Assembly (NCBI GenBank): GCA_017484135.1
Contig: JAFUTQ010000070.1
Location: 1 to 64,000, forward strand
Length of the DNA stretch: 64,000 nt
Direction: 5' to 3'
Source: Lachnospiraceae bacterium
Lineage (GTDB): Bacteria > Bacillota > Clostridia > Lachnospirales > Lachnospiraceae
Under the pieces are notes generated by a model. It made no database searches. It was not told the origin of the DNA and saw only the letters and a list, made by a program, of their open reading frames with translations. This document shows, in pieces, positions 9,583-51,623 of the stretch. Numbering within the stretch: position 1 is the stretch's first letter; each line of letters opens with the position of its first letter. A program made the position numbers and the translations under genes.

Positions 9583-9656
9583 CTGTAATGCATTACAGTT
9601 TTTGGTCTGGGCGAAAGCTCTTTGGACCACCGTGGGCGGGAAGAATTTCCCGCCAT
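9583..9656 (+). ncRNA. Structured leader upstream of the DUF3800 gene (candidate RNA motif)
   Basis: Three consecutive foldable elements lie between the cupin and DUF3800 genes: the perfect palindrome CTGTAATGCATTACAG (9583-9598) followed by T5; a hairpin in which TGGTC (9603-9607) pairs with GACCA around a GGGC-GAAA-GCTC inner stem capped by a GNRA tetraloop; and GGCGGGAA-GAAT-TTCCCGCC. The gene start is about 20 bases further on. Several conserved RNA motifs named DUF3800-I and onward are known to lie beside genes of this family. I cannot say which, if any, this one is. Confidence 0.5.
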
Positions 9657-9678
9657 TTCTTATATAGGGGAAATACAC

Positions 9679-10353
9679 ATGAAAGAACTAAGTGTTTTTA
9701 TTGATGAATCAGGAGACTTTGGAGAAGTGAAAAAGCATCCTGCGTACTATTTGGTAACGTTTGTTTTCCACAATCAAGATGATAATATAGACCGGCAAGT
9801 TGCAAAATTGGAGGAGAGTATAAAAAAAGCCGGATTTGATGTGGAGTATATACATACCGGGCCGGTAATTCGCAGAGAGGACGTCTTTGCAAGATATTCA
9901 ATTGATGAAAGAAGAAAATTAATATATAAGATGCTAAACTTTGTCAATGTGTGTCCCATTTCGTATCTGACAGTTGCTGTAGATAGAAAAGAAGCAGTAG
10001 ATAAGGTTGCTTTGTCGGGGAAATTGGTCAGGATAATTAATACTGCAATGAATGCACATCGAAATTTTTTTGCGAATTTTGATAAAATTGTTGTGTATTA
10101 TGATAACGGGCAGAATGAACTTAGCGCAATTTTAAATGCTGTATTTTCAACACAATTTACGAACGTTGAATTTAGAAAGGCTGAGCCACAACGATATAGG
10201 CTGTTGCAGGCGGCGGATTTTATTTGTTCTATGGAATTGCTAAAGATTAAGAGAAACGAGAAGCGTTTGAGTAAATCAGAAACGCAATTCTTTTATAAGC
10301 CACAGGAACTAAAGAAAACCTTTCTAAAGAGCATTGAGAAAAAGAAATTATAA
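9679..10353 (+). CDS. DUF3800 domain protein
   Basis: 224 residues from ATG 9679 (AGGGGAAA upstream). The N-terminal SVFIDESGDFG is the hallmark of DUF3800, an RNase-H-like fold predicted to be a nuclease; further acidic residues in VVYYDNGQNEL and LLQAADFICS complete the likely active site. Such genes are frequent in phage-defence and mobile regions, but the activity of this family is not established. The gene is AT-rich compared with the exporter block. It ends convergent with the minus-strand gene at 10411. Confidence 0.82.
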   Translation: MKELSVFIDESGDFGEVKKHPAYYLVTFVFHNQDDNIDRQVAKLEESIKKAGFDVEYIHTGPVIRREDVFARYSIDERRKLIYKMLNFVNVCPISYLTVAVDRKEAVDKVALSGKLVRIINTAMNAHRNFFANFDKIVVYYDNGQNELSAILNAVFSTQFTNVEFRKAEPQRYRLLQAADFICSMELLKIKRNEKRLSKSETQFFYKPQELKKTFLKSIEKKKL

Positions 10354-31046: not shown

Positions 31047-31061
31047 AATAGCAGACTCCCT

Positions 31062-31190
31062 TTACAAGTCAGCAGATTCTTCGTCATGTTGTTCTTTCCG
31101 TTTCCAAATCAGTCCGATAAAAAGTATAATCATTCCAGCCAGTATAACAGAATCAAAAATCTGTTTGAAACAGTACACTGCTCTATTCAT
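31062..31190 (-). CDS. 42-residue putative membrane peptide
   Basis: On the minus strand an ATG at 31190 with GAGGTGAT nine bases upstream starts a 42-residue frame: a short polar N-terminus, one hydrophobic stretch (SVILAGMIILFIGLIW), then a charged KRKEQHDEESADL tail. The organisation is that of a single-pass small membrane protein, and the ribosome-binding site is good. It is convergent with the SpoIID gene and divergent from the agr regulator gene. Unknown family. Confidence 0.45.
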   Translation of the reverse strand: MNRAVYCFKQIFDSVILAGMIILFIGLIWKRKEQHDEESADL

Positions 31191-31400
31191 ACATTATCAC
31201 CTCAAAGCTGAATTTGTTCATATACAATCTGTATTGTATTCTTTCCCCGGAATTATATCAAGGATTTTCTGTGCTTTGGACAGAGAATGAAAAAATAAGA
31301 CATAAAACTGAATAGCCGTTAAAAGTTAATACGAAAGAAGTATATGACGATAAATAAGGTAACGGTAAAATTGGGAATGAAGAGTTTGGAGGAAAAACAA

Positions 31401-32135
31401 ATGATAGAGATTGCTGTTTGCGATGATGATGTGAACGAGCTTGATACTACAGCTGAAATTTTGCATGAAATTTTCAAAAGCCGGAATTTAGAATGCAATA
31501 TAAAATCTTTTCTATCTGCAAGCGAATTGTTAAAGAGTACAAAAAAAATTGATATCGGCATTTTGGACATTGCAATGAATGAAATCAATGGGATTAAACT
31601 GGGAAGAAAGCTAAAAGAAAAATTTCCGCAGGTAATTTTAATTTACACAACCAGCTATGAAGAATACTGTATGCAGGCAATCAATGATGTTCATGCATTT
31701 TCTTTTTTATGTAAGCCCTTGGACAGGCAAAAGCTGTATGAACAAATAGGACAGGCGCTTAATATGATGCCGGATGATACTCTGGAAAAGCAGTTTTATA
31801 AGGTTACAGACAGCCGGAACAAGCAATATGTATCTATCAAATTGAAATTGCAGGATATTTTATATTTTGAGTACATAAAGAGGCAGAGAAGGGTTGCGAT
31901 TGTGCTGGCAGAGGAAACCTATGAATATGAGTGCGTCTTTGAAACGCTTGTCAAAGAAATGGAGCAATATGATTTTGCGGTAAACTGCAGGGGTTATTTG
32001 GTAAACCTATGTCATATTGCAAAAATAAAGGGATATGTTCTTTATTTAGACAATGGGCAAGAGCTTCCTATTGCACAAAAACGTATGGAAGGTTTTCGAT
32101 TAAAAATAAATACTTTTTTACAAAGTAATCTATAG
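31401..32135 (+). CDS. LytTR response regulator (AgrA-like)
   Basis: 244 residues from ATG 31401, with GAGGAAAAAC upstream. Receiver: AVCDDDVNELD near residue 5 and the phospho-acceptor in IGILDIAMNEING (about residue 58). LytTR domain from about 140 (SIKLKLQDILYFEY, NCRGYLVNLCHIAKIKG). Coupled to the kinase gene 11 bases downstream. Adjacency to agrD and agrB makes it the AgrA of this locus. It is AT-rich relative to the chromosome upstream. Confidence 0.9.
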   Translation: MIEIAVCDDDVNELDTTAEILHEIFKSRNLECNIKSFLSASELLKSTKKIDIGILDIAMNEINGIKLGRKLKEKFPQVILIYTTSYEEYCMQAINDVHAFSFLCKPLDRQKLYEQIGQALNMMPDDTLEKQFYKVTDSRNKQYVSIKLKLQDILYFEYIKRQRRVAIVLAEETYEYECVFETLVKEMEQYDFAVNCRGYLVNLCHIAKIKGYVLYLDNGQELPIAQKRMEGFRLKINTFLQSNL

Positions 32136-32146
32136 GGAAATGCGAT

Positions 32147-33439
32147 ATGGATAAAATTATACTTGTATTTTGTAATGGTCTGTCATGTTTTATTATTACC
32201 GCAATTTTATTCCAGTTTATGAATGACAGATACAAAAAAACATTCAGAAAAAAATATACATATCTTTTCATTGAAATGATTATCGTATTATGTATGGCGG
32301 CTGTTAATTTGATTAGTAATTCATTATTAAATCTGGTGTCATGGAGTGTCGCCGTTGGTGCTGCTGTATATTTCTTATACTATGAGGATGCTCATAAACC
32401 ATTGCGACGAATACTGGAGTGTGAGGCATTCATGTTTTGTATGACTGTTTGTGAGTCATTGGGGGTAATTTTGTTAAGATGGTTTTTACAAACAGTCTAT
32501 GTCAAAAACCTGAATGATGATATATGGTACTGCTTAGAGGCAATATTCTCAAAAATTATTCTTGTTTTTCTATATTATATAGTCATAAGCAGGCTTATGA
32601 AAAAAAAGAATATATCGTATTCAAAAACGCAGTATTTCATTTATGTTATTATGTTGGCATACAGTCTGATAAATATGTTGATAGTTATTGAAATTTATAC
32701 ACAAGGACAAATAAGTTATTTATGTACAATAAATATGGGGTGTATTGTATTAGCAGACCTATATCTCCTGTATTTTGTAAAAATGGCAGATGAAAAAAAC
32801 TATTATGAGAATCAGGTAAAGGCACTGGAACAGCAAGCAAATATACAGTATGAATATTATCTGGCGCAGATAAAGAAATATGATCGGACAGTGCAGATAC
32901 TCCATGATGTGAAAAAGCATATCAGGGCTATTGAGGGGTTATATGAAACCGACAAAAAATATATTGCGAGTAAGTACACAAATGAAATAGGAGATTTGTT
33001 ACAACCTCTTATTCCCATGGAATATACCGGAAATCCGATTTTGAATATTCTTTTGACAGATAAAGAAATGTCTATGATGGATAAAGGAATAGAGATGGAT
33101 ATTAAAATCGACAATGTGGATTTGGATTTTATAGAGCCAATTGATGTGACTACGATTTTTGGTAATTTATTGGATAATGCGATTGAAGCGGCAGAAAAAG
33201 TAAAAGGAAAGAAATACATATACATAAAGATCAGTTCTTTTCATCAGATGGTTGTTATAAGAATTGAAAACAGCTGTACAGTTGTAAAATGGAAAAATGG
33301 ATTTCCAGTATCCGAGAAGGGAAAGAATAGAGGGCTTGGACTTTTGAATGTGCAGAGCAGTATTCAAAGGTATGATGGAAATCTAAGCTTAAAACAAGAA
33401 AATCAGAAATTTATAGCGGAGCTTTTTCTCAACTCATAA
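32147..33439 (+). CDS. GHKL histidine kinase (AgrC-like peptide sensor)
   Basis: 430 residues. Six predicted membrane helices occupy the first 210 residues, the AgrC layout for sensing a cyclic peptide. A coiled coil then leads to ILHDVKKHIRAI, the phospho-acceptor His (about residue 250). TTIFGNLLDNAIEAAE is the N box and KNRGLGLLNVQSS the G box. It follows agrA by 11 bases and precedes agrD by about 215 bp that carry a separate promoter. Confidence 0.9.
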   Translation: MDKIILVFCNGLSCFIITAILFQFMNDRYKKTFRKKYTYLFIEMIIVLCMAAVNLISNSLLNLVSWSVAVGAAVYFLYYEDAHKPLRRILECEAFMFCMTVCESLGVILLRWFLQTVYVKNLNDDIWYCLEAIFSKIILVFLYYIVISRLMKKKNISYSKTQYFIYVIMLAYSLINMLIVIEIYTQGQISYLCTINMGCIVLADLYLLYFVKMADEKNYYENQVKALEQQANIQYEYYLAQIKKYDRTVQILHDVKKHIRAIEGLYETDKKYIASKYTNEIGDLLQPLIPMEYTGNPILNILLTDKEMSMMDKGIEMDIKIDNVDLDFIEPIDVTTIFGNLLDNAIEAAEKVKGKKYIYIKISSFHQMVVIRIENSCTVVKWKNGFPVSEKGKNRGLGLLNVQSSIQRYDGNLSLKQENQKFIAELFLNS

Positions 33440-33551
33440 AAGGGCAGAGGTATCAGTTCGCAAAATGATAATGTTACATACTAAATTGAAGAAACTACAC
33501 ATAATGGCATTTCATTAGGATGTTGTTATGTGTATTTTTGTTGGGAAAATC

Positions 33552-33620
33552 TTTACTTCGTGCAAAAATCTTTTACTTGGTGCAAATCTACTCGAAATTT
33601 AGGCGATGATTGTCGATAAT
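33552..33620 (+). promoter_or_regulatory. Tandem LytTR-type repeats and promoter of agrD-agrB
   Basis: TTTACTTCGTGCAAA (33552-33566) and TTTACTTGGTGCAAA (33572-33586) differ at one base and are spaced exactly 20 bp, two helical turns, as expected for a LytTR dimer such as AgrA. A -10-like GATAAT at 33615-33620 has no good -35 (TCGAAA), which fits an activator-dependent promoter. AGGAGG then lies eight bases before the agrD start. Confidence 0.7.
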
Positions 33621-33655
33621 GTAATTATCAAAATTAAATAAGGAGGCACCTGATT

Positions 33656-33826
33656 ATGAACAAGTTAAATGTTGTGGCAATGAATGTGATTTCAAAAGCA
33701 GCGCTGTTGTGTGCAAAAAAGGAGACGCAATCAGCTTGCTTGTGTCTGGGCTATCAGCCTAAAATGCCACAGAAAGTCAAAGACTTGGCAACCAAAAGTA
33801 GTATCCGTCTATGGAAAGATTGTTAG
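33656..33826 (+). CDS. agrD: AgrD-like autoinducing peptide precursor
   Basis: 56 residues, below usual annotation cut-offs. AGGAGGCACCTGATT precedes the ATG. An amphipathic N-terminus is followed by SACLCLGY and QPKMPQKVKDL. The QPKMP segment is the conserved AgrB recognition motif of clostridial AgrD proteins. The likely thiolactone Cys is Cys28, because the second AgrD in this window has its only Cys at the same distance (six residues) before QPKMP; Cys30 is an alternative. It overlaps agrB by 16 bases. Confidence 0.85.
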   Translation: MNKLNVVAMNVISKAALLCAKKETQSACLCLGYQPKMPQKVKDLATKSSIRLWKDC

Positions 33827-34374
33827 AAAGTCTTCTGTTTCGCATGAAATCAATGAGGCTTTTGCAAGAGGATGAGGAAGATGTATATCGCTTTGGCTTG
33901 GAATGCCTGTTGTTAAAGGTAATACATTATTCGTCATATGTAGCCATTAGTTGTATTCTGCATATGACAATCTCTATACTTGTTAGCGCCATAGTTCTAA
34001 TGCCATTGCGGAGAAAGTCTGGAGGTTTTCATGCGAGGACAAGAGTGGGATGCTATTTGTTTTCTTGCACCATAGTTGTCGTGGTGTGTTTGCTGAATAA
34101 AATTATTTTTCCGTTGTGGCTATCGATTATTATTTTGCTTATGTCAAACGTTATTGTGGTTGCCCTTGCTCCGATAGAAAATGAAAATAGAATTTTAGAT
34201 CGGACAGAACGAAAAATATTTAGAAAGCAAGCGATTTTTATATTGGTTATAGCTGATGTAGCAATTATTATATCATATATGGGAAATCGGGTAGTTAGCC
34301 AATGGCTATTAAATGGCATTGCAATTGCTGCACAGTTGACTTGGCTTGGAAAGTTGCAGGTTAAGAATAACTAG
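33811..34374 (+). CDS. agrB: AgrB-like peptide-processing membrane protease
   Basis: 187 residues, four or more membrane helices. RRKSGGFHARTRVGC holds His74 and Cys81, the same H-x6-C spacing as the catalytic pair of AgrB. It cuts AgrD at its C-terminal side and forms the thiolactone. The start lies inside the last codons of agrD, so translation is coupled. No terminator is obvious after the stop; a transposase remnant begins about 120 bp later. Confidence 0.9.
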   Translation: MERLLESLLFRMKSMRLLQEDEEDVYRFGLECLLLKVIHYSSYVAISCILHMTISILVSAIVLMPLRRKSGGFHARTRVGCYLFSCTIVVVVCLLNKIIFPLWLSIIILLMSNVIVVALAPIENENRILDRTERKIFRKQAIFILVIADVAIIISYMGNRVVSQWLLNGIAIAAQLTWLGKLQVKNN

Positions 34375-34492
34375 GAGGTGATGTAAAGCGCATAGGATAT
34401 AGAAATAACATAGAAATAAAATAACTAAAACTTCCCATATCAAAAATGGACCTCGCACCTTGAAAATTCAATAATACAGGTAATGAAGTAGA

Positions 34493-34735
34493 TGCTTTAA
34501 GCAGCCAGAGCCGCTTTTGCCAGTGAATTTCGGATATATTCCGGAAGCCGACCGACAAATATCTCGATGAACATCTGAAACTGTTCTTTTGTTGGCTGGA
34601 AACATGAGCGGTCAGAGCATCGTATGAGAGACGGTGGTATTCGCTGATTAGATTGAGATAGGACTTACAGGTCTTGAAGAAAACTTCAATCTGCCATATG
34701 CCGATATTTTCGAAATGCCGATTTTCGGCTTTCTG
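34493..34735 (-). pseudogene. Remnant of a DDE transposase, 3' end
   Basis: On the minus strand one frame reads GIWQIEVFFKTCKSYLNLISEYHRLSYDALTAHVS, the C-terminal catalytic region of an IS4-like transposase. A frame change near 34590 then gives FQMFIEIFVGRLPEYIRNSL and ends AKAALAA with a stop at 34498. The upstream part is gone. The last 46 bases (34493-34538) recur inverted at 37727-37772. Confidence 0.75.
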
Positions 34736-34922
34736 AGATGTCAGATTTATAACACTTTATATATTTATCGGCATTTCTTACTATAGAGATGTAACTAGTC
34801 ATCACTATACGAAGATAGGGAATGGTTTGGATTTTTTTGGAACTTATTTAGACCTTATACTGTAGTGTCTGGATTTTTATGAAGAGATCTTTACATTAAA
34901 TCTGCAAGAAAGGTAAAAGAGG

Positions 34923-35074
34923 ATGGAAACAAAAAAACTGTAAAAAGAAAATTGCTTAAGGTGGCTCAAAAAATAGGAGAGAAGGATATTATAAGGAATA
35001 CATCCTACTGGCCACCATATTGCATGGGATTTGTACATCAGCCGAAGATGCCCAAATCCAAAAATTCGGATTGA
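34923..35074 (+). pseudogene. Second AgrD-like peptide with a frameshift in an A7 tract
   Basis: ATG at 34923 follows AAAGGTAAAAGAGG but its frame closes after six codons. One extra A in the run 34931-34937 would give a 50-residue peptide: KRKLLKVAQKIGEKDIIRNT, then SYWPPYCMGFVHQPKMPKSK and a short tail. The Cys lies six residues before QPKMP, exactly as in the intact agrD 1.1 kb upstream. In the unshifted frame a TTG at 34952 could also start a 40-residue form. It may be a decayed gene, a phase-variable or slippage-controlled gene, or a sequencing error. Confidence 0.65.
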
Positions 35075-35255
35075 AGCGTATCAAAGAAATACTGATTAAA
35101 GTGAGGCGTTGCGTACACTGGTTTATCAGTGCCACCGAAGGGAAGTGCGGTCAGTAATGAACCAACAACAAACAAGAGGCATAGAATTTCGTCAAATCCG
35201 CATAAAACTTGAATTTTGGGTTTGACAAAATAAGAGAAAGGAGATCTAAAATTAT

Positions 35256-36809
35256 ATGAAGGTATTTATGAGAAAACTGAAGAAAATAATGAACATAGCA
35301 TTATGCACAATCATGGCATTTGTTTTGCTCTTCCCCAGCAATGTTGATGCAGCTATGGCAAAATCCGATAGCCATAATACTGACGGGGCATTCGTATCGA
35401 GTGACATAGAATCTGAAATTGTGCAGAAAGAGGTTGAGACTGATTTATATAATTCTCATTCACTGGATCAATCAGACGAGGAGTCTTTTTCTGTACAAGA
35501 AGTGATTGAGGAAGGGGAAGACGAAGAGGAAGAAGGGGAAGGAGAGAACACAGATCCCAACAATGCGTATGTTGTAGAAAATGGAGATGTAGTACAAGGC
35601 GTGTTGAGCGCTACCAGTGAAATGAGATGGTATGGATTTATAGTTGACCAGTCCAGCAAGGCAACTATTTTTCTTCAGTGCGTTGATACAGTTGATGCTG
35701 ATGTGTATTTATTTGCATTAGATCAATCAACATATCAGTTAAATCTGATCGGGGGTAGCGCAACAGCAGGAGCAGGAATAAGTGAGTTCAGCACGGAGGT
35801 TTTAGATTCCGGCATATATTATATTGCGGTTAGCTCTTATGATGGAAGTGGGCAGTTTGCTTTTGCTTTTTACCTGACTCAGGATGTGACAAATGAAGTG
35901 AATGATTCTGTAAGTAATGCCACTACCGTTAGCACAAGTACTACAGTAACGGGCGTAATAGATAGTCCGTATGATTACGATTATTATTCGTTTGAAGTAA
36001 CATCTCCAATGATAATGGAGTTTACAACAAACGTTGGTAGTTATGCATTTGATTGGATCAGTGTAGATAGCAATGCCCACGTGTATAAGATTTCAACATT
36101 GAATGAATTCTATCGGTTTGAGGCAGGGAATTATTGCTTCCGAATCTATAGCACTAATGGTAACTATAATGCAAACAGCAGTTATAGTATAACGTTAAAT
36201 AAAATAGGAAATGTATCATCTAATGCAAATGCAACATATTATATGATAAATAAAATGGCACATATTGTTTTTCAGTCAGATTCTAATGGCGGAAATATGT
36301 ATGTGAATGGTCATGCAATTAATATCAATTATAACTATTATGTTAATGCGTCAAATTCAGCTGGCACGCAGATATATGATATTTCAATGACAACACCTGC
36401 TGATTTGAAAGCCAAAATATATCAAAACCAGTTCCTTTTTGACGATGCAGATACAACAATATATTATGGTATGACAATGCCGGATGCAGTATACTATAAG
36501 AACGGAAGCAGAGGTGTGGGACCTAACAATATACATGCGTTAGAATTGTCGTTATATTCCAGTACAAACTTTTATCACATCCATTGTACATGTTCAGGAG
36601 CTTATGCATCGAATAATATGTACAAAGATGTGAATTTTGTAACTGTTTTCATAAATCCTGATACTGGTACGCTGGTTGATATTGAACATATTAATTATTT
36701 TTATGAGTATGCTTCGGGGTCAAATAGCATGACATTTACGCGGCCATATAGCACACATACTAAGTATTTATATCCTTATTATAATCAAGATGAGCCAAAA
36801 ACTTGGTAA
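35256..36809 (+). CDS. Secreted protein with PPC-like domains
   Basis: 517 residues. GAAAGGAGATC lies 12 bases upstream of ATG 35256; ATG 35268 is an alternative. The signal peptide (basic start, ALCTIMAFVLLFPSNVDA) is cleavable. A very acidic linker with an unbroken Glu/Asp run follows. Two beta-sandwich units, VVQGVLSATSEMRWYGFIVD onward and TVTGVIDSPYDYDYYSFEV onward, resemble bacterial pre-peptidase C-terminal (PPC) domains. The C-terminal 200 residues are Tyr/Asn-rich and unrecognised. No protease domain is attached. Its place after the second agrD suggests quorum-controlled secretion. Confidence 0.7.
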   Translation: MKVFMRKLKKIMNIALCTIMAFVLLFPSNVDAAMAKSDSHNTDGAFVSSDIESEIVQKEVETDLYNSHSLDQSDEESFSVQEVIEEGEDEEEEGEGENTDPNNAYVVENGDVVQGVLSATSEMRWYGFIVDQSSKATIFLQCVDTVDADVYLFALDQSTYQLNLIGGSATAGAGISEFSTEVLDSGIYYIAVSSYDGSGQFAFAFYLTQDVTNEVNDSVSNATTVSTSTTVTGVIDSPYDYDYYSFEVTSPMIMEFTTNVGSYAFDWISVDSNAHVYKISTLNEFYRFEAGNYCFRIYSTNGNYNANSSYSITLNKIGNVSSNANATYYMINKMAHIVFQSDSNGGNMYVNGHAININYNYYVNASNSAGTQIYDISMTTPADLKAKIYQNQFLFDDADTTIYYGMTMPDAVYYKNGSRGVGPNNIHALELSLYSSTNFYHIHCTCSGAYASNNMYKDVNFVTVFINPDTGTLVDIEHINYFYEYASGSNSMTFTRPYSTHTKYLYPYYNQDEPKTW

Positions 36810-36856
36810 TGTTGTGTTTGGTTAATTATATGTAGTAACTTCGATAAAAGAAAATG

Positions 36857-36909
36857 GTTTTGCCGGAACACAATGCGAGATTAGAACCGCATATGGGTTC
36901 TGGCAAAAC
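36857..36909 (+). other. Nested hairpin in the leader of the 258-residue gene
   Basis: GTTTTGCCGGAAC (36857-36869) pairs with GTTCTGGCAAAAC (36897-36909) with one G-T, and the inner ATGCG (36873-36877) pairs with CGCAT (36888-36892). There is no T tract, so it is more likely a leader structure or processing site than a terminator. It ends 36 bases before the next start. Confidence 0.45.
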
Positions 36910-36945
36910 AAACTGAAATGATGCCATAAATAGGAGGCAAGTACA

Positions 36946-37722
36946 ATGAGGATTCAAAGTAGTGATAGATATTATGAGTCAATATTTTTAAAAGAAGGGT
37001 ATAAGCAAAATGAAGAAAATATGAAAAAAAATAGTGTCATGCTACAAAATATGGACGTGGATATTAAGATTTCAGATGAAGGAAGAGATAAGTTGAATTC
37101 TGAGGCCTTAAGAAAAGAAAAAGAGTTTGTAGAAGATAAACTCTTTACAACCGATAATACCAATGAAGTTTTTTTTGAACACTATAGTAATTTGGTTAAA
37201 ATAGCAAGTGAAAAACTACAAGAAATTGCGAAGGAAAGAAAATATGATGCAGAAGATGTCATGAGAGAAACTATAGATGCATATGAAAACTATTTCCATG
37301 AGATCATGGAGCAACATAAGGATGGCAGCAGAAGTGTCACCTACGATATTGCAGGGAAAAGTGATGTTACATTGGAAGAGGACTTGCAGGGGTTAAATGA
37401 AGCGTTTGAAGAAAGAGTTGATGCTTTGGGCGTATTTATTGGGATTGAGCAGCTGAATAAAAAGTTTGCGAATCCAGACGCTGCATGGTGGTTTGAAAGA
37501 ATGGGGGTTAAATACTCAAAACAAAGGCAGGAACCTGTTGTTTATGATGAGGAACGAGAGAATGAATATTTATCGAATGCACTTGAGATTATGAAAAAAA
37601 CCCAAGAGATTTTTTTGGAAACATATAACAATTCCGGTTATAAGAAAGGAATGGCATCTCAGGCATTAATGGAAGTGATGTCGAGATATGATAATTTTCA
37701 AAATTATAGCAAAAAAGGTTAG
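36946..37722 (+). CDS. Unrecognised cytosolic protein
   Basis: 258 residues, no signal or membrane segment; AGGAGGCAAGTACA is upstream. Highly charged and alpha-helical, with MDVDIKISDEGRDKLNSEAL near residue 35-55. A segment like 'ISDEGR..L' is frequent near the N-terminus of uncharacterised Lachnospiraceae proteins, often several per genome, but I cannot name the family with certainty. The end lies five bases before a transposase-tail copy. Low GC. It may belong to a group with the proteins at 37761, 38203 and 39183. Confidence 0.7.
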   Translation: MRIQSSDRYYESIFLKEGYKQNEENMKKNSVMLQNMDVDIKISDEGRDKLNSEALRKEKEFVEDKLFTTDNTNEVFFEHYSNLVKIASEKLQEIAKERKYDAEDVMRETIDAYENYFHEIMEQHKDGSRSVTYDIAGKSDVTLEEDLQGLNEAFEERVDALGVFIGIEQLNKKFANPDAAWWFERMGVKYSKQRQEPVVYDEERENEYLSNALEIMKKTQEIFLETYNNSGYKKGMASQALMEVMSRYDNFQNYSKKG

Positions 37723-37726
37723 AGAT

Positions 37727-37772
37727 TATATCCGAAATTCATTGGCAAAAGCGGCTCTGGATGCGTAAAGCA
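37727..37772 (+). mobile_element. Copy of the transposase 3' tail
   Basis: TATATCCGAAATTCA onward matches the reverse complement of 34493-34538 at about 42 of 46 positions and encodes the same YIRNSLAKAAL(A/D)A-stop. The two tails lie inverted with their stops outward, bracketing a 3.2-kb block with the second agrD, the PPC protein and the 258-residue protein. Confidence 0.7.
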
Positions 37773-38069
37773 AATAAAGCATTTAAGAATCAGAGCGAGA
37801 AATTCGAGGAACGTAATAAGAATAACAAGAAGGCTATCGAGATTCTCTCTGCCCATGCTGAAAAAGTCTCGAAGCTTTCTTCCGGCAGAGCTTCTATTGA
37901 AAAGGATGCGCAGAAAGAACTTGAGCGGGCGAAAAAGGAAGTTGCACCAGAGAATATCAGTGAGAGGCTGATAAAAGCCTCTGAGACATTTATGAAGCAG
38001 TACAGTTTGAAAGGCAGAGATGTTGGGATTAGTAGTATATTACAGGGAATCAGTGTGTTTTCTATGTGA
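37761..38069 (+). pseudogene. Truncated coiled-coil protein
   Basis: 102 residues starting with an ATG that lies inside the transposase tail and has no ribosome-binding site. The protein is Lys/Glu-rich and helical (KFEERNKNNKKAIEILSAHAEKVSKL) and ends LKGRDVGISSILQGISVFSM. I read it as the 3' part of a gene cut by the insertion event. Alternatively, translation may continue from upstream reading. The family is unknown. Confidence 0.5.
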
Positions 38070-38152
38070 TGATCGATGCACAAGGGAGGGGATTCGTATA
38101 TAGTGTCCAATAAATATGGGCAGATAAGCTATATTATCTAAACTGCTATGAG

Positions 38153-38185
38153 ATGCTTCGCAGGCGGTTATCGCATGCGGAGCAT
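38153..38185 (+). other. Hairpin in the leader of the 321-residue gene
   Basis: ATGCTTCGCA (38153-38162) pairs with TGCGGAGCAT (38176-38185) with one T-G wobble; an AAAGGAG ribosome-binding site follows within 10 bases. It may mask or stabilise the leader. Confidence 0.4.
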
Positions 38186-38202
38186 TAAGAAAGGAGAAAT
38201 GA

Positions 38203-39168
38203 ATGGAAATTTCAAATAATCAATCATGGTATATAAATCCGAATAATCGGACAGTAACATCGAATATTAAAAATACAGCGGTCAAAGATTGGAAAACTGT
38301 CAAGGAAACAATGTTTGACGAAATGGAACCTGTTGAAGATCTGATAGCGACTATAAAAATTCCTTTAAACTTAGCGGAGAGCACAAGTGTTAACAAGGTG
38401 GCTAACTCCGTCAACCTGGCAATCGGTGCGAAAATTCGTATTAATGATGGATATGTACTGACGGTAAAAACGCATGGAGTAGAATTATCTCATACAGAAG
38501 ACTATAATCCATATGATCAGAAAGCGTATTTAAAAGCAGAACAAATGTCTGGTTCACTGGCTTCCCTGCTTAGAAATGCAGGAGGGACAAGGACGAGACT
38601 CTACCATACCGAAGAGGCTGGTCAGGGGGTTATGCAGGGTATAACCAATGTATTAAGCTATTTGGGAATAGATACCGGCAAAGATTTTTATGTGAATGGT
38701 ATGAAATATTCCACAAACAGTAAGGGCTATTTTGAATCCGAAGCAACTACGGAAGCGCAGGCAGCCTATGAACGACAACAGGCAGCTAACAGGACATATG
38801 AATTTGCGGATGAAAAAACCAGAAAGCAGATTGCATATATGAGTGATTACTACCTATCCACGACGCCGGAAGATGTGAAAGACGCATGGCAGGCTACACT
38901 GGAGGAGACAGGAATTAACCCGTTCCCTAATGGGTATGCAAGCACATTGGCACAACTGTCAGTTGAGCAGGACTTCCAAACAGGGGGGAACAATAATATT
39001 TTTGGAGATACATTGGAAAGCAGTATAGCCGCAGTTGAGAGTATCCTTGAAAGAATTGATAATCCTCTGGAAGCAATGAAAGAGAGTGATTATGCAAACT
39101 TGGAAAATGAAAAGGAGTTTTACTCGGCATTATTAGAAAATTTGCAAAAATACAACTCGGATTCATAG
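38203..39168 (+). CDS. Unrecognised protein, possibly a surface- or flagella-related family
   Basis: 321 residues, no signal peptide or membrane helix. AAGGAG lies nine bases upstream. The N-terminal 110 residues look beta-rich (NQSWYINPNNRTVTSNI, KIRINDGYVLTVKTHGVEL); the middle has KDFYVNGMKYSTNSKGYFES and a helical Ala/Gln-rich region; the C-terminus is helical. I do not recognise it. It lies 15 bases before the next gene, which appears cotranscribed. Confidence 0.75.
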   Translation: MEISNNQSWYINPNNRTVTSNIKNTAVKDWKTVKETMFDEMEPVEDLIATIKIPLNLAESTSVNKVANSVNLAIGAKIRINDGYVLTVKTHGVELSHTEDYNPYDQKAYLKAEQMSGSLASLLRNAGGTRTRLYHTEEAGQGVMQGITNVLSYLGIDTGKDFYVNGMKYSTNSKGYFESEATTEAQAAYERQQAANRTYEFADEKTRKQIAYMSDYYLSTTPEDVKDAWQATLEETGINPFPNGYASTLAQLSVEQDFQTGGNNNIFGDTLESSIAAVESILERIDNPLEAMKESDYANLENEKEFYSALLENLQKYNSDS

Positions 39169-39182
39169 TATGAAGGAGTTGG

Positions 39183-39626
39183 ATGATTCGGATAGTAGAT
39201 ATTTTGGAACAGCAAAAGGCGAATCTCAAAAATATGAAAACGAACTCGCTGGAGGATATTTCAAAAAAACTGGAGCTTCTGCATGGATATGAGGATCAGA
39301 TCGCAGCGGTAAAAGAAAGCTATAACAATTCACAGATGCTTCATTCGCTGGACGAGGCGATAGAACGGGGAGAGAAAATTGCAGAGGAAGCGAAGAAGTC
39401 TGCGCCGAAGACACCGGAGGAGCGCCGGAAGGAAATGGTCGAGGAGGCAACCGGCGTAGAGCAGAGCCAGGGTATGCTGTCCGAAATGCTGGATGAACTT
39501 TCGGAGATTACAGAAGACATATCCGAAACGCCGGAAGAAAATCTTGAGGAGACATTGGAGGAGACGGAAGAAGAATTATCCGTCGAAATGCCTGACAAAT
39601 ATCAGCGGATTGATCTTCGCATATAG
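39183..39626 (+). CDS. Acidic helical protein
   Basis: 147 residues; GAAGGAG is five bases upstream. Almost entirely charged helix: Lys/Glu-rich first half (ILEQQKANLKNMKTNSLEDI) and a Glu-rich second half (ETPEENLEETLEETEEELS). No known domain. The pairing with the 321-residue protein resembles a protein and its small chaperone or partner, but that is a guess from size and spacing. Confidence 0.7.
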   Translation: MIRIVDILEQQKANLKNMKTNSLEDISKKLELLHGYEDQIAAVKESYNNSQMLHSLDEAIERGEKIAEEAKKSAPKTPEERRKEMVEEATGVEQSQGMLSEMLDELSEITEDISETPEENLEETLEETEEELSVEMPDKYQRIDLRI

Positions 39627-39711
39627 CAAAGAAAAAAGAAGGCAAAAAACTGAATAAAGTAAAAAAAACTGTCAACACTATTGGTAAATATAATCAATGG
39701 ATGGTGATAGT

Positions 39712-48968: not shown

Positions 48969-50830
48969 TGAGTGCGAAAAACGAAGATCTGAAAAAGATT
49001 ACAAAAAGACGGATGCCTCAGGGCGGACCGCCCGGAATGATGCCCGGCGAAAAGGCAAAAAACTTTAAGGGCGCCGTAAAAGATCTGGTTAAGTATATGG
49101 GCAAAGATAAATACAAGGTGGTCATCGTTATGGTGTGCGCGGCGCTCTCTACCGTATTTACGGTTGTGGGGCCCAAGATTATGGGAAAAGCCACGACGGA
49201 GCTTGCTACCGGACTGATGAAAAAGATTTCTCAGACGGGAGGGATTGACTTCGACTATATTGCCCGAATCCTTTTGCTCACACTGGGTCTCTATCTGTTA
49301 AGCGGGGTTTTTACCTTTGTACAGGGATGGCTGATGACGGGAGTGACGCAGCGGCTCTGCTATCGGATGAGACGGGAGATTTCTGAGAAAATAAACCGTA
49401 TGCCGATGAAATACTTTGAGAGCCGTACCTATGGAGAGGTGCTTTCAAGGATCACGAATGACGTGGATACACTCGGCATGTCGCTGAATCAGAGTGTTAC
49501 AACGCTGATTACCTCTGTTGCAACACTGGTGGGCATTGCCATCATGATGCTGAGCATCTCGCCGCTGATGACGCTGATCGCGATTGTCATTCTCCCGGTT
49601 TCGGCGGCGCTGCTCGGATTTATCATGAAGCACTCGCAGAAATACTTTAAGCAGCAGCAGGAATATCTGGGACATGTCAACGGACAGGTAGAGGAGGTGT
49701 TCGGCGGACACAATATTATCAAAACCTTCAACAAGGAGGAGGAAACGCTCGAGACCTTCCGGGAAACAAACAATATCCTTTACACCACGGCAGTGAAGTC
49801 CCAGTTTTACTCAGGGCTTATGATGCCGATCATGATGTTTGTCGGAAACCTGGGTTATGCAGGGGTTGCGATCTCAGGAGGAATCCTTGCAATCAGGGGA
49901 GTCATTACGATTGGAGACATTCAGGCATTTATCCAGTATGTCAAGCAGTTTACCCAGCCCATCAGCCAGGTTGCGCAGGTGATGAATCAGATGCAGTCTA
50001 TGGCAGCAGCCGCGGAGCGTGTGTTTGAATTTCTCGGAGAGGAGGAAGAGGTTCAGATCATTGAGGATCCGGTACAGCTTCAGGAGGTTCGCGGAGAGGT
50101 CGCGTTCGATCATGTGAAGTTTGGCTATGATCCGGATAAGATCATTATTCATGACTTTTCCAGAAAGGTAGAGCCCGGGCAGACGATTGCGATCGTAGGA
50201 CCCACGGGAGCCGGCAAAACCACGATGGTTAAGTTGCTGATGCGATTTTATGACGTAAATGATGGCGCGATTACAGTGGACGGACATAACGTGAAAAGCT
50301 TCAACCGCAGGGAGCTTCGGTCTGCCTTTGGAATGGTGCTGCAGGATGCATGGCTCTTTAAGGGCTCCATCATGGAGAATATAAGATTTGGCCGTCAGGA
50401 TGCAACAGATGAGGAGGTCATTGCAGCAGCGAAAAAGGCACATGCCCATCATTTTATTTCCAGACTGCCGGAAGGCTACCGCTTTGAACTGAGCGAGGAT
50501 GCCACAAATATTTCTCAGGGACAGAGACAGCTTCTCACCATAGCCAGAGCGCTGCTTGCGGATTGCCCGATTTTGATTTTAGACGAGGCGACCTCCAGCG
50601 TAGATACGAGAACAGAGGCCAGGATCCAGCGCGGCATGTATAACCTCACGAAGGGAAGAACCAGCTTTGTGATCGCACATCGCCTCTCAACCATTCGGGA
50701 TGCGGACTGTATTCTGGTGATGAAGGACGGAGATATCGTAGAGAGCGGAACGCATGCGGAGCTTCTGGAAAAAGACGGATTCTATGCGGAGCTGTACAAC
50801 AGTCAGTTTGCGGAGGAAAATGCCGGGTAA
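48968..50830 (+). CDS. ABC exporter subunit with canonical ATP site
   Basis: 620 residues. Six-helix exporter domain after a basic, Gly/Pro-rich N-terminus (RRMPQGGPPGMMPGEKAK). NBD: Walker A GPTGAGKTT, signature ISQGQRQ (second residue altered, as in the TM288 type), Walker B ILILDEATSSVD with the catalytic Glu intact. Partner of the preceding gene; a drug or lipid exporter. Its last 11 bases overlap the Hsp70-like gene. Confidence 0.93.
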   Translation: MSAKNEDLKKITKRRMPQGGPPGMMPGEKAKNFKGAVKDLVKYMGKDKYKVVIVMVCAALSTVFTVVGPKIMGKATTELATGLMKKISQTGGIDFDYIARILLLTLGLYLLSGVFTFVQGWLMTGVTQRLCYRMRREISEKINRMPMKYFESRTYGEVLSRITNDVDTLGMSLNQSVTTLITSVATLVGIAIMMLSISPLMTLIAIVILPVSAALLGFIMKHSQKYFKQQQEYLGHVNGQVEEVFGGHNIIKTFNKEEETLETFRETNNILYTTAVKSQFYSGLMMPIMMFVGNLGYAGVAISGGILAIRGVITIGDIQAFIQYVKQFTQPISQVAQVMNQMQSMAAAAERVFEFLGEEEEVQIIEDPVQLQEVRGEVAFDHVKFGYDPDKIIIHDFSRKVEPGQTIAIVGPTGAGKTTMVKLLMRFYDVNDGAITVDGHNVKSFNRRELRSAFGMVLQDAWLFKGSIMENIRFGRQDATDEEVIAAAKKAHAHHFISRLPEGYRFELSEDATNISQGQRQLLTIARALLADCPILILDEATSSVDTRTEARIQRGMYNLTKGRTSFVIAHRLSTIRDADCILVMKDGDIVESGTHAELLEKDGFYAELYNSQFAEENAG

Positions 50831-51623
50831 TTTTATTTCCGAATTATTTCACAGGGATCTTGTGTGCGGGAGTGATGCACAGGTATTGGTTGCCAAGGGG
50901 ATTGGCTATTATGTGGGGATCAAGCAGCGTGAGGAAGGAATCGGGGAGATTGTGATGACGGATGTATGCCCGTTCTCCCTCGGAACAGGAGTGATCAGGG
51001 ACAATGATCCCAGTCTGATCATGAATGTTCTCATCAAGAGGAACAGCAAGCTCCCAAAGAGTGTCACCGAGCGTTATTTCCCGGTCAGCGCCTCGCAGGA
51101 TCGCGTGGAGTTCGACATCTATCAGGGAGAGCATTATCATGCGGAGGACAATCAGAAGCTGGGAGAGTTTGAAATACGGATTCCCCAAGGGGGTCCCATG
51201 GCGCAAAAGGAAATCAAGGTCACCATGGCGTATGATATCAATGGGATCTTGTATGTGCAGGCGGAAAACGCAGAGGGGCGAAAGGTGGATTATATCGTTG
51301 ACGGGCAGAGAGGGATGACTCCTGCACAGATCAGGGAAATGTCAAGAGCGCTTCTGGAGAAAAGCTATCTTCCCAGAGAGGCCGAGGAATGTACCTATCT
51401 TTTGGAGTGCGCAATGCATTTGTATGAGCAGGCAAATGACGATAATCGCAATTTCCTTGAGGAATGTATCGCGCAACTCGTCTACGCAAAGAGCTTAGAC
51501 GGAAATGTGCAGAGCATTAAAATTGTCCGGGAGTGTAAAAAGATGCTGGAGGCATATATGGCGGCGGATGCGGAGGATCCGTTCGAGCAGGGGGAGCATG
51601 GGGAGACAGAAATTTGGGGCTAA
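50820..51623 (+). pseudogene. Headless Hsp70 (DnaK-like) C-terminal fragment
   Basis: 267 residues if started at ATG 50820, which has GGAGGA upstream inside the exporter gene. The sequence begins where an Hsp70 ATPase domain ends (SDAQVLVAKGIGYYVGI) and continues into the substrate-binding domain (MTDVCPFSLGTGVIRDND, then LGEFEIRIPQGG and GILYVQAENAEGRK) and a helical lid. The N-terminal ATPase domain of about 330 residues is missing. It may be an inactive fragment or an ATP-independent peptide binder coupled to the exporter. I lean to a fragment joined by deletion. Confidence 0.65.

Follow-up and report, generated by a model that had tools for sequence, protein, structure and literature searches.

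We conclude that agrD2, a second agrD-like frame in the 64,000-nt window (the whole stretch of DNA that was analysed), is probably a young pseudogene, what is left of a genuine, recently broken pheromone gene from the agrB-agrD class. In the history that we favor, agrD2 would have come to lie downstream of an other-class AgrB within an agr island of low GC content, selection would have kept its reading frame for most of the gene's history, and a recent lesion would have left the 5′ end one base off frame and the ribosome-binding site weakened. With its 5′ end broken and that site weakened, the gene would therefore now be a young pseudogene, from which re-initiation at TTG 34952, a rare −1 slip, or the like would yield no more than trace amounts of peptide. 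The features of the locus, in window coordinates, are as follows.

31344..32135, + strand: AgrA-like LytTR response regulator (PF00072 and PF04397; 72% identity to that of G312)
32147..33439, + strand: AgrC-like histidine kinase (PF14501; 70% identity to that of G312)
33656..33826, + strand: agrD1, intact (TIGR04223, 36.4 bits)
33811..34374, + strand: agrB1 (PF04647, E = 2.9e-31), grouping in the AgrB tree with AgrBs that have agrD in front
34442..34756, − strand: remnant of an IS4-family transposase between agrB and agrD2 (NF049925, 46.4 bits)
34906..34922, + strand: weakened ribosome-binding region, AAAGGT vs. CAGGAGGT in most relatives
34923..34943, + strand: ATG and six-codon frame, the start of agrD in relatives, here one base off frame
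34931..34937, + strand: A7 tract; the frame offset falls between ATG 34923 and TTG 34952
34952..35074, + strand: agrD2, downstream portion of the AgrD frame, intact, with 40 codons starting at TTG and then a stop (TIGR04223, 25.1 bits; homologues)
35256..36809, + strand: secreted-looking protein downstream of agrD2, gene order shared with G312 (43% identity over 406 aa; signal-like N-terminus by eye)

The host genome is a 2.55 Mb draft in 116 contigs, 83% complete. Its agr block forms an island (31047-39696) between the genes for SpoIID and an M23 peptidase, which here lie ~8.6 kb apart, separated mostly by lower-GC DNA. The same two genes are ~0.5 kb or less apart in all seven other genomes of the genus (one of the stretches compared, L125, starts within SpoIID), and no agr-gene match was found between them in any of the seven. 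AgrB matches at E ≤ 0.001 were likewise absent from these seven genomes, two of which are <90% complete. Genome G312 repeats the order regulator, kinase, agrB, and secreted protein (72, 70, 40, and 43% identity, respectively), with 56 bp between agrB and the next open reading frame (ORF), that of the secreted protein, vs. 881 bp here. A profile search with PF04647 found one AgrB in the host assembly and no second; at the locus, no second AgrC lies beside agrD2. In the related agr locus of another genome (G220, L087), agrD comes first, agrB follows at a distance of ~2.4 kb, and further frames occupy the gap.

The AgrD frame of agrD2 runs open from before TTG 34952 until the stop codon 35072-35074; its translation ends in ...SYWPPYCMGFVHQPKMPKSKNSD. 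The NCBIfam model TIGR04223 (quorum_AgrD) gave 25.1 bits for 34952-35071 and 36.4 bits for agrD1, against a cut-off of 19, confirming the AgrD-like peptide that a sequence-only reading of this DNA had proposed; neither peptide had a Pfam match at E ≤ 1. The same reading had suggested a search for homologous peptides and had held that their absence would mean chance. The 40-aa peptide was matched in 31 of 397 genomes of the family, its own included, at E ≤ 0.1, ruling out chance, and the best non-self matches had E values of 5.9e-17 and 1.7e-16. A second search, across genomes of the order, returned matches in 15 of 392, again including its own. Peptide identity to the intact AgrDs of two Lachnospiraceae genomes was 68% and 74%, and the DNA at 34911-35048 was 80.6% and 77.0% identical to that of the two best relatives. 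The claim that the spacing from Cys to QPKMP equals that in the intact agrD also held, with five residues in both when the first Cys of agrD1 is counted. The predicted ring of agrD2 is C-M-G-F-V and the predicted cut falls before HQPKMP; we placed ring size, ring position, and cleavage site by analogy with S. aureus AgrD. A Cys ring is followed by a P-x-x-P tail, and C24, P31, and P34 are invariant in an alignment of 18 sequences. The amphipathic moment of the leader was not decisive (0.40 for the TTG-started agrD2 leader, 0.51 to 0.75 for three relatives, and 0.39 for agrD1). Judged on its predicted peptide, 34952-35074 is a genuine second AgrD.

As a member of the TIGR04223 AgrDs (cyclic lactone autoinducer precursors), agrD2 shares the leader, the Cys ring, the Q-P-x-x-P tail, and an above-cut-off score but differs in its out-of-frame start, its weak ribosome-binding site, and the lack of an AgrB of its class in the assembly. 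The closest peptides (58-76% identity) belong to the agrBD pairs of Lachnospiraceae RUG11623, RUG13148, and C10, which are rumen bacteria; their agrD genes are intact, overlap agrB, and encode PKRP, whereas agrD2 has PKMP. An agr set is carried by phage phiCDHM1 (PMC3901668). Close-similarity searches of phages and plasmids returned nothing, and three scans of viral contigs confirmed no relative. A 33-bp match in one genome (G031), on the opposite strand and without a visible AgrD-like ORF, was dismissed as chance.

We fetched 20 longer stretches around the stronger agrD2 matches, two of which (L084 and L085) are near-identical. All 20 carry an AgrB on the same strand, upstream of agrD; it is adjacent to agrD in 19 and ~2.1 kb upstream in the other (L076). 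In a tree of 56 AgrBs, from which 13 loci were omitted as repeat fetches, 24 of the 26 rows with agrD behind agrB cluster together, among them the AgrBs of the closest relatives of agrD2. The two exceptions (L022 and L091) sit among rows in which agrD is in front or its place is unknown, and one row with agrD in front (L028) branches at the base of the 24. The AgrB of the window is one of six rows, all with agrD in front, that group together (support 99/96), and L091 lies next to this group (88/93). At this locus, no AgrB of the agrD-behind group lies directly upstream of agrD2: the only one is AgrB1, of the other group, and the IS4 scrap intervenes. Of the sequence marks of the class, agrD2 has WPPxC (as WPPYC) and lacks PKRP, with PKMP instead. 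Going by its relatives and their AgrBs, agrD2 is not a sister of agrD1 and belongs to a class whose members normally sit directly behind an AgrB of their own. The different class, the lack of a second AgrB in the assembly, and the intervening IS4 scrap had all been missed in the sequence-only reading.

That reading had also called one AgrB and one AgrC with two signal peptides an unusual circuit. None of the 71 other fetched loci, some of them one place fetched twice, combined one AgrB with two AgrDs (no AgrD was found in the stretch for seven and no AgrB for three), but such an arrangement has been proposed elsewhere. In C. autoethanogenum, one locus carries agrD1, agrC1, and agrB1, a separate one carries agrD2 and agrC2, the genome lacks another AgrB, and AgrB1 is proposed to process both AgrDs (PMC8748961). 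Systems 1 and 2 of that species resemble the present case in having two AgrDs and a single AgrB in the genome; they differ in that agrD2 there has its own agrC2 and a separate locus, whereas here it is broken and beside agrB1, with no adjacent second AgrC. C. botulinum is described as having two agrBD sets with different roles (PMC3673130). None of the sources we saw described an agrD neighboring an AgrB of the opposite class, which is weak evidence of absence.

Three AgrD-like peptides (L104-L106), whose short stretches hold no AgrB, were considered as orphans and set aside. Longer stretches showed an AgrB ~2.4 kb off on the other strand in two of the three (L126 and L127), an unusual layout, and no AgrB in L128. 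By eye, none of these peptides is of the agrD2 class.

A remnant of a second AgrB upstream of agrD2 was sought and is not claimed. In protein alignments, 125 of 300 shuffles and 41 of 125 control pieces scored as well. In DNA alignments, the numbers of shuffles out of 500 that did as well were 94 and 7 under strict settings and 386 and 213 under loose settings, against RUG11623 (G098) and RUG13148 (G215), respectively; one of these four comparisons (G215, strict) is suggestive. Because an upstream AgrB remnant could not be shown, the view of agrD2 as a piece of an agrBD pair rests on its class and not on a visible scar.

The IS4 scrap matches NF049925 at 46.4 bits, far under the full-length cut-off of 250, over residues 21-53 of the translated stretch only (model positions 326-358 of 449); it has no Pfam match. 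Three transposase-bearing plasmid records match the same residues. An inverted copy of one end of the scrap lies at 37724-37783, opposite 34482-34541, with 85% identity. The frames 36946-37722 and 37761-38069 meet at this second copy. Since a G312 ORF of ~250 aa matches the second frame (37% over 99 aa), one gene in 36946-38069 may be split.

The ATG at 34923-34925 opens a six-codon frame that ends with TAA at 34941-34943. From start codon to TTG codon there are 29 nt here, vs. 30 nt in the three closest relatives (L066, L067, and L110); the start region is in frame in RUG11623, RUG13148, and Lachnospiraceae C10. Of the earlier description of a start with a ribosome-binding site, out of frame by one base, the one-base offset of the ATG stands, but the site is weak, with a predicted binding energy of −4.0 kcal/mol vs. 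−10.3 to −11.8 kcal/mol in 19 of 20 relatives and −7.1 kcal/mol in the other (start codons of the relatives were picked by hand, and L084 was omitted as a near copy). TTG 34952, in frame and 8 nt behind the six-codon frame, reaches −0.9 kcal/mol. Elsewhere in the locus, the values are −5.9 kcal/mol for the AgrC kinase and −1.3 kcal/mol for agrB itself, so that a weak ribosome-binding site alone is no proof of loss. We regard agrD2 as broken, and not as an intact AgrD gene, because its ATG is off frame and its in-frame TTG has only −0.9 kcal/mol; neither codon combines an in-frame start with a ribosome-binding site. Loss by frameshift has a parallel in S. aureus, in which agr-gene frameshifts are reported in >5% of genomes and judged evolutionarily short-lived (PMC8768832), although those strike genes of the native operon and here the gene is an extra agrD of another class.

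An assembly or sequencing error in an intact agrD2 is a very unlikely source of the one-base offset. The genome is a draft (116 contigs, 83% complete), which would allow for such an error, but of the 45 A/T tracts of length ≥7 in the window, 31 fall within + strand ORFs of ≥170 aa, so the assembly does not seem generally poor at such tracts, and the ribosome-binding site differs from that of the relatives independently. The sequence-only reading had held that eight As throughout related genomes would mark a sequencing error; compared on this point, the closest relatives have interrupted A runs and an open frame, so that rule does not apply as written.

A phase-variable switch, or programmed transcriptional slippage at the A7 tract, had been offered alongside recent loss, and we now consider it highly improbable. 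The tract sits between the start and the peptide, and A runs of 7 or 8 occur within the first 36 nt in five of the 20 relatives; however, these are more distant and all have open frames, and none of the three closest relatives has an A run of >5 in that region. Slippage by bacterial RNA polymerase is reported to need runs of ≥7 T, or longer ones of A (PMC6260861), which puts A7 at or under the length needed. Nor did we find a stimulatory fold for frameshifting downstream of the tract, the predicted RNA structure being ordinary (z = −0.99; 34 of 200 shuffles as good). A conserved slippery tract with stimulators, as programmed frameshifting or phase variation would entail, is thus not what we found. 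Recent loss, also among the earlier proposals, is the most likely of these readings, in keeping with the in-frame starts of the closest relatives.

Over 32 codons, differences at codon positions 1, 2, and 3 numbered 3, 3, and 14 against G098 and 3, 2, and 16 against G215. Because differences to the relatives fall mostly at third positions, the frame appears to have been under selection for long. Changes unique to the window, relative to three relatives, comprise six synonymous and four nonsynonymous ones, two of the latter in one codon. From this pattern, we infer use of the frame up to the recent past or even to the present.

The residue before the last Pro of Q-P-x-x-P bears on continued use. 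It is Arg in 25 of 25 motif-bearing AgrDs behind AgrB (PKRP in most), a sample that is not random because many were found by likeness to agrD2, and M, L, V, E, or I in 22 of 22 AgrDs preceding AgrB; the window was excluded from these counts, and three motif-less AgrDs, one behind AgrB and two in front, were set aside. Arg also occurs in three AgrDs from a later listing, of which one was in the count before; three without a same-strand AgrB in the stretch have Met. Like the adjacent agrD1, agrD2 carries Met (PKMP), encoded by ATG, two bases different from the AGA of two relatives. Two papers name P-x-x-P as the AgrB recognition or binding site (PMC8748961 and PMC3901668). PKMP may reflect adaptation of agrD2 to the foreign AgrB1 before the gene broke, or it may be a chance change in a relaxed gene. 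A further, rather unlikely reading is that agrD2 was captured next to an other-class AgrB and changed specificity through a single class-diagnostic P-x-x-P residue, giving a two-signal, one-peptidase circuit seen just after or still before its loss. These data suggest that signal genes of agr systems can swap partners between AgrB classes in Lachnospiraceae; a single P-x-x-P residue, which in our sample is Arg in one class and always a different residue in the second, is a candidate determinant of AgrB/AgrD acceptance.

It is doubtful, in our estimate, that agrD2 still works at a low level, through re-initiation at TTG 34952 or a −1 slip on A_AAA_AAA, with AgrB1 serving two signals. The split between Arg behind AgrB and other residues in front, with PKMP on the side of AgrB1, would fit such a role, as would the P-x-x-P recognition site and the proposal of AgrB1 for both AgrDs in C. 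autoethanogenum (PMC8748961). The mostly synonymous changes and the PKMP for PKRP also fit a peptide still in use and so count against loss, as do the −4.0 kcal/mol, within the range of this locus, and the TTG-started frame, in which the ring and the recognition motif remain together with a portion of the leader. On the other side, a relaxed site could also turn to Met, the TTG is almost without a ribosome-binding site, and the downstream RNA structure is not unusual. Promoter-like sequences, 34738-34765 among them, are no commoner in the region than chance predicts (5 found vs. 6.7 expected), and in E. coli, A_AAA_AAA is far less shift-prone than A_AAA_AAG (PMC5009743). Since the gene looks recently dead, agrD2 is probably unimportant as an active circuit.

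An ancestral agrD1-agrB-agrD2 locus, with a native second AgrD behind AgrB1 that decayed separately in several genera, strikes us as remote. G312, with the same locus, has FYLVILYQPKRLRKHDVK (L086:8630-8686) just behind agrB, with Tyr at the Cys position, and the pattern [HYFN]QPK[RM] occurs only twice in the 63,998 forward codons of the window, both times in AgrDs. The G312 tail was nonetheless found after the fact, is 18 residues long, and lacks the ring Cys, and no such tail was seen in five plus ten other relatives checked; the silence of the five-relative search is weak because its pattern missed the known AgrDs of L087, L088, L089, and L091. The FYLVILYQPKRLRKHDVK of G312 may be a second AgrD that has decayed, at the corresponding position in a different genus.

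Elsewhere in the window, a DUF3800-XI RNA (Rfam RF02975, 48.3 bits) at 9603-9650 overlaps the start of the frame 9622-10353. By eye, 50754-51623 looks like a gene for the C-terminal portion of an Hsp70-like protein; it overlaps an ABC-transporter-like gene at the end of the latter.
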